This document shows, in pieces, positions 37,540 to 42,155 of a stretch of 64,000 nucleotides of DNA. The stretch spans positions 1-64,000 of the forward strand of contig DATNQD010000054.1 of NCBI GenBank assembly GCA_036702865.1, read 5' to 3'. Position 1 is the stretch's first letter. The number at the start of each line of letters is the position of its first letter. This DNA is from Trichocoleus sp. GTDB taxonomy: Bacteria > Cyanobacteriota > Cyanobacteriia > Elainellales > Elainellaceae. Position numbers and translations under genes: made by a program. The notes below the pieces were generated by a model, which was given only the letters and a program-made list of their open reading frames with translations, did no database searches and was not told where the DNA came from.

Positions 37540-38756
37540 TGGTGCAAGGCAGAAAAATCTTGATTGGTGTGGGTGGCGGCATTGCAGCTTACAAAGTTTG
37601 TGAAGTTGTCTCCACTCTGGCAAAAGCAGGCGCAGCAGTTCGGGTAATTTTGACCGATCGCGCCCAACAGTTTATTACCCCGCTCACCTTAGCTACGCTG
37701 GCGCGTCATCCAGCCTATACGGACGCCGATTTTTGGCAGCCAACTCATGCCCGTCCTTTGCATATTGAACTGGGGGAATGGGCAGAAGTGCTGTTGCTGG
37801 CTCCTTTGACTGCAAACACGCTGGGTAAGCTGGTTTACGGTCTGGCAGACAATCTCCTGACAAACACGGTGCTGGCTTCGGTTTGTCCCGTGCTGCTGGC
37901 TCCAGCCATGAATACGGATATGTGGGAACAGCAGTCGGTGCAGCGCAACTGGCAACAGCTTCAGGCTGACCCTCGTTATCATGCGATCGATCCTTCTGCA
38001 GGGGTTTTGGCTTGCGATCGAGTCGGTAAAGGACGGATGGCAGAACCGCCAGAAATTTTGGCACATCTGGAATCGCTGCTGCATACAGGCGGTCAACGCG
38101 ACCTCACAGGCAAGCATGTCTTGATTAGTGCAGGCGGAACCCGCGAATTGATTGATCCGGCGCGCTTTATTGGTAATCCTTCGACTGGGAAGATGGGGAT
38201 CGCTTTAGCTCAGGCGGCTTTGCATCGAGGTGCGTCAGTAACGCTAGTTCATGCCCCGATGGATGCAAGTTTGCTGAAGGTTTTATCGGGTGTGCAACTT
38301 GTGCCGATCGTCAGTGCTGCGGAAATGCAACAGGCGATGACTACCTATTTGCCTCAAGCGGATTGGATTATCATGTCTGCGGCGGTTGCGGATGTCCGAC
38401 CTGCCACTTATCACGTTGAAAAATTGCCCAAAAAATCGCTCCCCGATTCTCTCCCCCTCGCCTCTGTCCCCGATATCGTTGCAGAACTAAGCCATCTGAA
38501 ACAGCCGTATCAGAAGCTCATCGGCTTTGCTGCCCAAACCGGAGATTTTGTCACGCCAGCCCTCGAAAAGTTGCAGCGCAAAAACTTAGACGCTATTGCC
38601 GCCAACCCGATCGACCAACCCAACAGCGGTTTCGGCAGCGACCAGAATCAAGCCGTCTTCCTCGATCGACAAGGCAGAAAAGAAGCGATCGAGCCTTGCA
38701 GTAAGCTCCAGATGGCACATCGTTTGCTAGATTTTGTTCTGGAGATAAAAGATTAG
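37539..38756 (+). CDS. coaBC: Bifunctional phosphopantothenoylcysteine decarboxylase/synthase
   Basis: 405 residues from ATG 37539. Makes 4'-phosphopantetheine for coenzyme A in two steps. N-terminal FMN-binding Coa[14 protein letters not shown], and PAMNTDMW with the substrate-clamping Asn, plus Cys in [14 protein letters not shown]-terminal Coa[28 protein letters not shown] and [10 protein letters not shown]. Full length. The upstream DUF2555 gene is coupled by a one-base overlap. Confidence 0.95.
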
Positions 38757-38867: not shown

Positions 38868-39107
38868 TCAAGCAACAAGCGATCGAACAGACAAAACCTC
38901 ATCAGCCCGTAGAGGCTCTATCGCTGAAACCGGAACAGTCAGCACAGCGATCGATTCCCCAACGGCATTGAAAACCTCTAAAATGCAGCCCTCTTCACCA
39001 CTAGAAGGATGAGGAACGCGATCGATCAATGTTGCAACATCACCCTTACATAAACGATGTTCTGGAATATCAGACCTTAAGGCAACTTGTTGATATAGTT
39101 CAAGCAT
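38868..39107 (-). CDS. DUF4926 domain-containing protein
   Basis: 79 residues from ATG 39107 (MLELYQQVALRSDIPEHRL). Strong fit to DUF4926: a short beta-rich domain with LCKGDVATLIDRVPH, GCILEVFNAVGES and VSAIEPL. Function unknown; DUF4926 genes often sit beside DUF6883 genes. The start overlaps the end of the DUF6883 gene by 8 bp, so translation is likely coupled. Confidence 0.82.
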   Translation of the reverse strand: MLELYQQVALRSDIPEHRLCKGDVATLIDRVPHPSSGEEGCILEVFNAVGESIAVLTVPVSAIEPLRADEVLSVRSLVA

Positions 39108-39444
39108 TGCGTCGAGGCTCCTTCTGGGGTTTGAGAGTGACAAAGTGAAAGCTGTTATCTGAATTCCATCGTATCCAAATCGTCACCACTGTCAGACTAC
39201 GACCATTTACACCTTCAAAATTGCCTGTAACCCTATAAAGAGTTCCATACTGATTCATTCCATCTTCGATCGCTTCTACTGCCTGAATCAGATTAATGAT
39301 TGCCAACCTCAAGGCATCTGGATTTTGTAGCGTGAATCCTGCTTGAGCTAAGAACTTTGATTTATCATCGCGTAATCTTGGCACTAACAAGTAACGAGTT
39401 AGCTTTTCTTCGGGAATATCAGCATTCACAGGAATTTTGAACAT
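39100..39444 (-). CDS. DUF6883 domain-containing protein
   Basis: 114 residues. DUF6883 hallmarks: IPEEKLTRYLLVPRLRDDKSKFLAQAGF near the N-terminus, followed by a strand-rich half containing YGTLYRVTGNFEG and LTVVTIWIRWN. Found in cyanobacterial operons with DUF4926; suspected toxin/antitoxin or phage-related role, unproved. 13 bp after the XRE gene. Confidence 0.78.
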   Translation of the reverse strand: MFKIPVNADIPEEKLTRYLLVPRLRDDKSKFLAQAGFTLQNPDALRLAIINLIQAVEAIEDGMNQYGTLYRVTGNFEGVNGRSLTVVTIWIRWNSDNSFHFVTLKPQKEPRRNA

Positions 39445-39457
39445 GAAGCAGAATGCT

Positions 39458-39670
39458 CTATTCCTCTAACACATCAACCAGATCTTCGATCGAGACGTCA
39501 AAGAGACGAGCCAGTTTTTGTAGCGCTGTATAGTCTACTGTTGCCAAACTTGTAGCCTGAGCATATTTTTTGACCGTCGCATAAGGTATGCCTGTGCGAT
39601 CGGAAACTTCCTTCAATGTCCAACCCTTCTCGTCCACCAATTCCCTAACTTTCAGCCTAATTCGCCCCAT
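39458..39670 (-). CDS. XRE-family helix-turn-helix regulator
   Basis: 70 residues from ATG 39670. The helix-turn-helix spans KGWTLKEVSDRTGIPYATVKKY; a second helical part ends DLVDVLEE. It contains only the DNA-binding domain, as in many antitoxin or prophage regulators. Leader of the three-gene cassette with the DUF6883 and DUF4926 genes, so it may repress its own promoter. Confidence 0.82.
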   Translation of the reverse strand: MGRIRLKVRELVDEKGWTLKEVSDRTGIPYATVKKYAQATSLATVDYTALQKLARLFDVSIEDLVDVLEE

Positions 39671-39792
39671 GACTTGACAGAGGCTATGAGCGTAGCCTTT
39701 AATGAATTTGTTCCTAAAAACGATCGCCCCTAGCCTGGAAAACTGAAGGGCGACCGTCAAAGTATTTCCCCGAAAAATTCAGGAATGTTTTT

Positions 39793-40044
39793 ATGATACC
39801 AGCCCACCCGCCGGATACAACGGCTTCAACTTCTGCTGCGTCTGCTTCCTCAAGCTACTACGATCGGCTGCATCCCTGGTGCATTATTCGCCATTTGCCC
39901 AATCTGCAGCGCACCACGATCGCCCGTTTTCGTCACTGTAATCCGGCGGAAGCGCATCTGCGAGTCTTACGGCAGCTAACTCCTACCGCAACCTACAGTC
40001 TAGTTTTTGATACAGAGAGCGATCGGGTCAGCCGCAAGGGTTAG
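39793..40044 (+). CDS. Conserved small cyanobacterial protein
   Basis: 83 residues. An N-terminal Ser/Thr/Ala-rich segment is followed by YYDRLHPWCIIRHLPNLQ and a helical basic region ending in RVLRQLTPTATYSLVFDT. It looks like a known small family of cyanobacteria, but I cannot name it. Divergent from the XRE cassette. A dispersed repeat lies directly after its stop. Confidence 0.6.
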   Translation: MIPAHPPDTTASTSAASASSSYYDRLHPWCIIRHLPNLQRTTIARFRHCNPAEAHLRVLRQLTPTATYSLVFDTESDRVSRKG

Positions 40045-40129: not shown

Positions 40130-41635
40130 CTATTGCACAATTGCGCAGTCCTTTGTGGATAGATTTAATCCGCTCGACAATTCAGCAAACTGACCGCCCT
40201 TACCAAAGCCTTTCGCTGCACCATTCTCGTTGTAGAACAGCGCCCCTGACCCACGAACGTAGGTAAAGTCAGCACTGCTGCGTTGAGCTGCTTTCAGATT
40301 TTCCACCGTCTGGAATTTCAGCTTCTTGCCCAGTTCAAACGTGCCGCGCGAGAAGGCTAACTTGTCACCACGAGTAAAGTCACTGATGACATCAACACCA
40401 ATCGTTGCGGCATTAAACACACCATTCGTACTAAAGATAAATTGGTCGTTCCCTGCGCCACCCTTTAAGTAATCGAGTCCTTGGCGTCCTTCTAGCGTAT
40501 CGTCGCCAGCACCACCCGTTAGGTCATCACTGCCGCCATTGCCAATCAGGATATTGTTAGCACCGTTGCCAATAATGCTGTCATCTTGTGCGGTTCCATT
40601 AACGTTGAGCAAGCCAGCAGTCGGACGATCGAGGAAGCGATTTTCACCAAAGGCGATCGAGAAGGTGGATTTAGACAGATCAACCGTCAGCGCAGCCCCG
40701 GTTAAATTCGTTGCATTCAGCGTCGGCGCAGTCAGCGTTAGCCCAGCAATGTCGCCGTTGAAACCGTAAACAATATATTCCGGCTTCAGGACAGCACTCT
40801 CAGGATTATTGCCTCTTTCCAAAACCAGATCAGACAAGCCATCCCCGTTCAGGTCGCCGCTTTGAGGAATGCCTGCACCAAGCAGATCATTTGCTGCAAC
40901 ACCATTGATGACTAGCCCATTGGTTCCATTGATACTTGCCACATCAACTGATGAACCAAACCCGCCACCAACCTTACCAAACAAAGCATAGACTTGTCCC
41001 GCTTTGCTCACTCCATTCGGTGAAGCATTTGGATTACCAACTAGAACATCGCTCAGTCCATCGTTGTTTAGATCAGTAGTAGTTACCAAATAACCACCTG
41101 TAATCTTGAAGCCGTTTGTGCCATCAACCTTAGTGGGGTCAAGCGTGGCTCCAAACCCATTCTTATTGCCATAGACAATATAGGTATCGGCAGCAGAAAT
41201 TGTCTCATTGGGGTTGAGTGATGGCACCAGAGCAGCAGAAAAGCCAACGATCAGATCGGTGATACCGTCACCGTTCACGTCGCCTGCGGTCGAGACACTG
41301 TAGGGAAGCGTGTAGGAATAGGGAGTCCCTGCTGTGCTGCCTGCGACAGTTGCATTAGGGACAAGGAGGGTCAGCCCATTCGTACCATTGAGTTTCGCTG
41401 CGTCAAAGGTAGAGGTTGCCGGATTCGTGGCGCTGCCAAAGATAATATAGTTTTTTCCGGGTGAAGTATTGCCTGTGGTTAGATCGGTTACGCCCGGTAT
41501 GGTAATCAGCGAGTCATCTACTTTATCGCTATTGATATCACCAAGAACACTAAAACTACTCGTTTGAGGAACCTGGTAAGTAAAGCCAGTCTTACCATCC
41601 AGCGATACAAGATTGAGAGGTGAAGAAGTTGCCAT
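40130..41635 (-). CDS. FG-GAP and RTX calcium-repeat protein
   Basis: 501 residues from ATG 41635. The N-terminal 300 residues have several FG-GAP (integrin beta-propeller) units: DVNGDGITDLIVG, DLNNDGLSDVLVG, DLNGDGLSDLVLE, each with the D-x-(D/N)-x-D-G calcium loop. The C-terminal 150 residues hold RTX nonapeptides: GNGGSDDLTGGAGDDTLEG, GGAGNDQFIF. No cleavable signal peptide, as expected of RTX proteins exported by type I secretion, but no exporter is adjacent. Probably a secreted or surface protein. Confidence 0.85.
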   Translation of the reverse strand: MATSSPLNLVSLDGKTGFTYQVPQTSSFSVLGDINSDKVDDSLITIPGVTDLTTGNTSPGKNYIIFGSATNPATSTFDAAKLNGTNGLTLLVPNATVAGSTAGTPYSYTLPYSVSTAGDVNGDGITDLIVGFSAALVPSLNPNETISAADTYIVYGNKNGFGATLDPTKVDGTNGFKITGGYLVTTTDLNNDGLSDVLVGNPNASPNGVSKAGQVYALFGKVGGGFGSSVDVASINGTNGLVINGVAANDLLGAGIPQSGDLNGDGLSDLVLERGNNPESAVLKPEYIVYGFNGDIAGLTLTAPTLNATNLTGAALTVDLSKSTFSIAFGENRFLDRPTAGLLNVNGTAQDDSIIGNGANNILIGNGGSDDLTGGAGDDTLEGRQGLDYLKGGAGNDQFIFSTNGVFNAATIGVDVISDFTRGDKLAFSRGTFELGKKLKFQTVENLKAAQRSSADFTYVRGSGALFYNENGAAKGFGKGGQFAELSSGLNLSTKDCAIVQ

Positions 41636-42155
41636 AAGCTCCTTGAAATCAAAAATATTAGAGTTCTGCTGCAACACAGCCTTGAAGCAACGAAGCGATC
41701 GAGCTTAAACACAAACGTTCGACTGGAAACAGACATTCAAAATCAAACAAATGAATTTTGTTTCAACTTCGTTTACTCCAGGGAACAAAGCAAATCTGCT
41801 TACAGACTGCACTAAAGAACCGTAAAACAGATTGAGCAGCAGATGAAAACTAAACTATCTACAAACTTTGCTCAGGATTCCCACAGATCGCTTCAAATGT
41901 GTCACATTTAACAAAACAAATTGGATGAATGAAGTAATCGATCGATCAAAAGGCTAGATCCCACATTTTCACAAGAAATACAAGTCTAGAAAAGCGGGTA
42001 GATGGGATATCGTCTTCACAAAAAAGATATTTTTTCTGTATTGTCTCGGAAGCGGAATTGCTGAAATATGACGTGTATTTAATATAAGCAGTTGAAGAAT
42101 ATCGAAATATCGGTTCGATTCGCATCCTATTCGTTAAGCTCTGAGGCATTCACTC
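41636..42155. promoter_or_regulatory. Upstream region of RTX protein and carbonic anhydrase
   Basis: 520 bp, AT-rich, containing promoters of both divergent genes. A perfect 7-1-7 palindrome AAATGTGTCACATTT lies at 41895-41909, half-sites TGTG/CACA as in CRP-type sites. It is centred 267 bp before the RTX start and 254 bp before the carbonic anhydrase start. No coding frame in the region is convincing. Confidence 0.5.

Follow-up and report, generated by a model that had tools for sequence, protein, structure and literature searches.

The locus lies within a 64,000-nucleotide stretch of Trichocoleus sp. DNA, the whole of which is referred to here as the window. It comprises three genes on the minus strand, XRE (39670 to 39458) followed by DUF6883 (39444 to 39100) and then DUF4926 (39107 to 38868), with the following features and neighbours:

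ends at 38756, plus strand: coaBC, left neighbour on the DUF4926 side
38868..39107, minus strand: DUF4926 (PF16277) gene, 79 aa from ATG 39107; PF16277 39 bits (cut-off 29.1)
39100..39444, minus strand: DUF6883 (PF21814) gene, 114 aa; PF21814 52 bits (cut-off 27)
39458..39670, minus strand: XRE (Cro/C1-type HTH) gene, 70 aa from ATG 39670; Pfam HTH_26 39.3 bits, HTH_3 34.1 bits
39793..40044, plus strand: 83-aa 'HPWCIIR..LP..QR' ORF, divergent from XRE, with homologues at most XRE loci of the family
40130-41677, minus strand: FG-GAP/RTX-type protein gene, to the right of the 83-aa ORF

A preliminary description of this DNA had reported three tightly packed minus-strand genes, a 70-residue XRE protein and an 8-bp overlap between the two DUF genes, and these details were borne out: 13 nt separate the XRE stop from the DUF6883 start, the DUF6883 and DUF4926 frames overlap by 8 bp (gap -8 nt), and the XRE product has the reported length and matches two Pfam HTH families. 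The mechanical ORF of DUF4926 begins at TTG 39143; because its relatives start at the Met corresponding to ATG 39107, we took 38868-39107 as the coding region, and the 8-bp overlap agrees with this start. XRE, DUF6883 and DUF4926 each show purifying selection (pN/pS 0.22-0.36 against relatives, a rough estimate with synonymous sites near saturation), and the DUF6883 and DUF4926 families have one copy each in this genome. Promoter and terminator scans at the locus returned about as many hits as in shuffled sequence, and its repeats were two-copy and of chance size, giving no sign of cassette attachment repeats. The gene at 40130-41677, near the cassette, encodes a 515-aa product with FG-GAP and RTX calcium-binding repeats.

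The XRE gene and its varying neighbours

The preliminary description had taken the three genes together as the layout of a toxin-antitoxin (TA) or defence module. Read in this way, the XRE protein would serve the module as its own regulator or antitoxin, and the trio would move as one cassette. The gaps between XRE and the pair at the three loci where they are linked (13 nt in the window, 15 nt in G401 and 44 nt in G407) suggest co-transcription, and a Meiothermus plasmid (L220:2733-3632) carries a different, unrelated HTH gene (HTH_17) 25 nt upstream of DUF6883-DUF4926, an independent association of the pair with an HTH protein. However, while XRE relatives were found in 21/36 genomes of the taxonomic family, the DUF pair stands beside XRE at only 3 of about 28 XRE loci. 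In a tree of 55 XREs, which rests on only 70 columns and has many weak forks, the three pair-linked sequences are split (three changes) and form one clade in 0% of bootstraps. The window XRE is 83% identical to a pair-less XRE in G410 but only 61% identical to the pair-linked XREs of G401 and G407, and an XRE directly upstream is missing at most other pairs, among them the plasmid copies nearest to that of the window. We therefore regard a three-gene module as improbable, and the idea that XRE is the module's own regulator is not supported; XRE is possibly a local transcriptional regulator, with co-transcription possible at the three linked loci, rather than a core part of the pair. A search that relied on linkage to XRE would therefore overlook almost every copy.

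The usual arrangement at XRE loci of the family is a divergent pair of XRE and a homologue of the 83-aa ORF, whose relatives share the motif 'HPWCIxRxLPxxQRxxxARF' (window 39458-40044; L122-L135, L136-L161) and which returned no Pfam match above cut-off and no PHROG. At L123-L125, L127, L129, L130 and L132, XRE is divergent from another protein of ~150 aa (HPLSRFATKE..IYRIE..SRFVSYADLPPI), of which the single copy scanned had no Pfam match. More distant cyanobacteria have XRE in tandem arrays of two to four copies. The gene behind XRE varies, being HigB followed by a HigA-like gene, a Gp49/HigB-like gene followed by an antidote-like gene, a HicB-like gene, TIR, Uma2 or DUF6883/DUF4926. This variation, seen at about 28 loci compared without statistical control, suggests that a conserved unit of XRE and the 'HPWC' ORF heads a variable slot.

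DUF6883 and DUF4926 as a mobile pair

The preliminary description had proposed surveying how the two DUFs co-occur with XRE genes and how mobile they are; such a survey gave a strong association and signs of mobility for the two DUFs, while the XRE linkage proved to be local. Across 386 cyanobacterial genomes, DUF6883 is present in 94 and DUF4926 in 99, with both in 89, DUF6883 only in 5, DUF4926 only in 10 and neither in 282 (Fisher p 4.5e-69, indicative only, since the genomes are related). DUF4926 directly adjoins DUF6883 in 30/30 of the best-scoring DUF6883-seeded loci and in 23/24 further loci from named genomes, and the pairwise distances of the two families are closely correlated (Mantel r 0.91, 0/5000 permutations). 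DUF6883 usually comes first, with the order reversed on a Methylobacterium plasmid and in one Puniceicoccales genome, and none of the loci inspected contained a natural fusion of the two. The unit is thus DUF6883 with DUF4926, not the trio with XRE, as the adjacency of the pair is far beyond chance and that of XRE is local. Adjacent, usually overlapping small genes that are inherited together are a trait of type II TA systems, seen here as the 8-bp overlap, the co-occurrence and the co-divergence.

The two partners differ in how they are found alone. Among 30 DUF4926-seeded loci, 15 have an intact DUF6883, six a truncated or broken one and nine none, with a toxin remnant upstream of DUF4926 in 1/9 orphans searched. 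Orphan copies of DUF4926 and broken copies of DUF6883 are common, whereas DUF6883 rarely stands without DUF4926; this comparison is not fully balanced because the 30 DUF6883-seeded loci were the best-scoring ones. This asymmetry is the pattern expected if DUF4926 is the harmless partner. Two further arrangements were noted: on a Nostoc plasmid (L068:4361-4782), the DUF4926 of matching type behind DUF6883 is truncated and an intact DUF4926 from a different subfamily comes next, which looks like an antitoxin replacement, and DUF4926 carries long C-terminal extensions, possibly effector-associated domains, at L059:1428-2117 and L087:828-1484, one of them with 'SGDNVAGDKI'-like repeats.

The cases of DUF6883 without DUF4926 are chiefly large fused proteins, namely a MuF fusion and two proteins of ~500 aa (Methylobacterium, Streptomyces). 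In the fusion, located in a plasmid-borne prophage of Anoxybacillus (L216:2939-4538), DUF6883 forms the C-terminus of a Phage_Mu_F minor head protein; MuF head proteins are a known site of injected BECR (Barnase/EndoU/Colicin/RelE) effectors (PMC5512222). Viral models of minor capsid proteins also match DUF6883. Searches of a phage collection returned no match. An overlapping 56-aa ORF follows the MuF-DUF6883 gene and could encode its immunity protein.

Stable vertical inheritance across the cyanobacteria, which the preliminary description had named, together with a lack of toxicity, as evidence against a TA or defence module, is not what was observed. Both families are patchy and multicopy, with 0-9 copies per genome. 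Within the taxonomic family, DUF6883 occurs anywhere in the genome in only 14/36 genomes, several copies having internal stops, whereas coaBC is present in 36/36 and the pair lies near it in only two, the window and G401. In G401, the pair is in the same coaBC neighbourhood, a few kb further on and behind a transposase-like gene, and among 30 coaBC loci with 1.5-kb flanks, only the window has the pair inside the flank. Occupancy of the site near coaBC is accessory-gene behaviour. The nearest plasmid relatives of the window pair lie beside ParA/ParB-type genes (parAB) on small mobilizable Nostoc and Tolypothrix plasmids, another is on a conjugative plasmid, and the two families also occur on plasmids of Proteobacteria, Actinobacteria and Deinococcota. 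A patchy, mobile and multicopy distribution (94/386 genomes, up to nine copies, plasmids) is likewise a trait of type II TA systems.

These data also bear on whether the two genes might form a vertically inherited housekeeping pair with a role in RNA processing, for which the purifying selection on both genes and their presence in about a quarter of the sampled cyanobacteria could be cited. The patchiness, the variable copy number, the many broken copies, the plasmid carriage and the absence of the pair beside most coaBC genes of the family argue against such a role, which we consider very unlikely.

TA pairs often serve defence, and the pair could act against phage by abortive infection rather than by simple addiction, a sub-case of the TA reading that differs in trigger and benefit. 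One of the nearest plasmid relatives of the window pair has hsdS on one side and hsdR on the other, within a type I restriction operon, and, on an Agrobacterium plasmid (L219:2793-3300), DUF6883 is directly behind a BPTD_3080-family restriction endonuclease. However, no PADLOC model matched the window DUF6883 or DUF4926, their relatives gave one chance-level match only, and the copies beside plasmid partition genes suit stabilisation equally well. We regard an anti-phage role as possible but rather unlikely. The C-terminal end of the Agrobacterium endonuclease weakly matches DUF4926.

Predicted structures and function of the pair

PDB sequence searches with single proteins and with profiles returned nothing significant for DUF6883 or DUF4926, and NCBIfam gave no match for either. 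The AlphaFold2 model of DUF6883 (pLDDT 92.6, pTM 0.84, from an alignment of 47 sequences) contains the elements H12-19, H28-33, H42-55, E58-63, E67-77, E83-93 and E99-106, that is, the N-terminal helices followed by a four-stranded meander that characterise the BECR fold. A Foldseek search of the PDB with this model returned 6CP9 for all of the top four chains (E 4.9e-4 to 1.3e-3), and a second structural alignment to 6CP9, the toxin CdiA-CT Kp342, gave Z 10.4 and rmsd 2.4 A over 98 residues at ~16% identity. Weaker matches were to 6CP8 (EC3006, Z 7.5), BrnT (Z 6.7) and RelE (Z 5.9), with unrelated folds below Z 5. As the PDB sequence searches were without significant match, the relation of DUF6883 to 6CP9 is visible by fold only.

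The Kp342 tRNase uses K157, Y160, H170, R252 and T255, which comprise a triad of Lys, Tyr and Thr together with a His and an Arg (PMC9086364). Judged from where the structural alignment starts and stops (8 to 151, 107 to 259), DUF6883 K14 corresponds to K157, residue 100 to R252 and T103 to T255, a mapping that assumes no gaps near the ends; Y18 maps one residue off the listed Y160. Among the 47 relatives, K14 is conserved in 45/45 ungapped rows, Y18 in 45/46, T/S103 in 44/46 and R/K100 in 40/46, and H24 is frequent; the L004 type is an example of a member with the complete K-Y-H-R-T set. This places a Ser/Thr in strand 4 and the candidate catalytic residues in the N-terminal helix, the configuration of Kp342 and EC3006 rather than the common His form of the BECR fold, and K14, Y18 and T103 are the predicted catalytic triad of DUF6883. 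The window copy retains all three residues; with His in place of Arg at position 100 and Leu in place of His at position 24, it may be less active or act on a different target. Not every BECR fold is an RNase, as ParE illustrates (PMC11980606); we infer the RNase activity and the tRNA target of DUF6883 from the match to Kp342 and the conserved triad.

DUF4926 is modelled as an SH3-like (SH3/KOW-like) barrel (pLDDT 85.3), a generic match shared with many unrelated chains at Z 7-8.7, and no recognised DNA-binding domain was found in it by Pfam or in the model. We predict it to be an SH3-like-barrel antitoxin, encoded across the stop of DUF6883; the DNA binding and autoregulation that antitoxins often provide might be supplied locally by XRE. 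The roles could be reversed, with DUF4926 as the toxin and DUF6883 as the antitoxin, given that MazF toxins have an SH3-barrel fold (PMC7180214) and DUF4926 models as an SH3-like barrel. Nevertheless, it is DUF4926 that occurs alone and DUF6883 that occurs in broken form, the predicted toxin fold and triad sit in DUF6883, DUF6883 is the domain fused to a phage head protein, and SH3-like antitoxins have precedent in VapX and VapY (PMC11980593). We give a reversal of roles hardly any credence.

Taken together, DUF6883-DUF4926 is probably a bicistronic TA module of a BECR-RNase toxin and an SH3-like antitoxin. The TA or defence layout noted in the preliminary description thus stands, as a predicted function, for these two genes, on the basis of fold, triad, co-occurrence, mobility and orphan asymmetry, and falls for the trio with XRE. 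In the mechanism we propose, DUF6883 would be a small metal-independent endoribonuclease of the BECR fold, nearest to the CdiA-CT tRNase toxins Kp342 and EC3006, that most likely cuts tRNA via its Lys-Tyr-Thr site. DUF4926, made from the overlapping downstream frame, would bind and block it in a type II-like design. The module would be an accessory cassette moving between chromosomes and plasmids, with a role either in stabilising plasmids or islands or in arresting growth when triggered by phage. In the genome of the window, it lies 3' to coaBC and follows an XRE gene that is conserved independently and may locally drive or repress its expression.

The literature searched contained no paper on DUF6883, one passing mention of DUF4926 and none describing the pair, such that two Pfam families of unknown function gain a concrete and testable predicted function, with the residues to mutate named. 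More tentatively, we suggest that the pair represents an undescribed, multi-phylum TA family of a stand-alone intracellular tRNase of the CDI class and an SH3-like antitoxin, that its toxin domain also serves in phage head proteins as a likely injected effector, and that the XRE-'HPWC' pair marks a conserved chromosomal slot collecting exchangeable TA and defence cassettes in this cyanobacterial family. If so, one domain would link CDI tRNase toxins, phage MuF effectors and chromosomal TA modules, serving bacterial modules and phages alike.

Comparison with known systems

The CdiA-CT toxins Kp342 and EC3006 (6CP9, 6CP8), of a type for which tRNA-Ile cleavage is a feature, are the best structural match of DUF6883, over nearly the whole domain. 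The Lys and Thr of the predicted triad are in equivalent places, the Tyr is one helix turn after the Lys, and most relatives have a conserved basic residue three before the Thr. In contrast to these toxins, DUF6883 is a stand-alone protein without the CdiA delivery region and has DUF4926 as its partner; sequence identity is only about 16%, and the window copy lacks His24 and has His for Arg. CDI systems carry their toxin at the C-terminal end of a large CdiA, which CdiB exports; a system of this kind was considered for the locus and rejected, the window gene being a 114-aa stand-alone ORF with XRE and coaBC as neighbours.

In BrnT/BrnA and the type II TA systems of the RelE/ParE superfamily, a small BECR-fold protein is likewise encoded in an operon of two genes, the other being its overlapping partner, and BrnT and RelE are among the weaker fold matches; however, there is no sequence match, and DUF4926 is not a recognised DNA-binding antitoxin. 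The name DUF6883 is absent from a review of 13 monodomain BECR TA families. VapX and VapY provide a precedent for an SH3-like-barrel antitoxin that neutralises a ribonuclease toxin (PMC11980593), although their toxin belongs to another family (VapD), with no sequence relation to DUF4926 shown. Finally, the PBECR and MuF-linked effector RNase domains of phages share the fold class with DUF6883 and its position C-terminal to Phage_Mu_F in a prophage head protein, but PBECR families mostly use a helix-1 histidine, where DUF6883 has Lys and Tyr in helix 1, and the window copy of DUF6883 is neither fused nor phage-borne.
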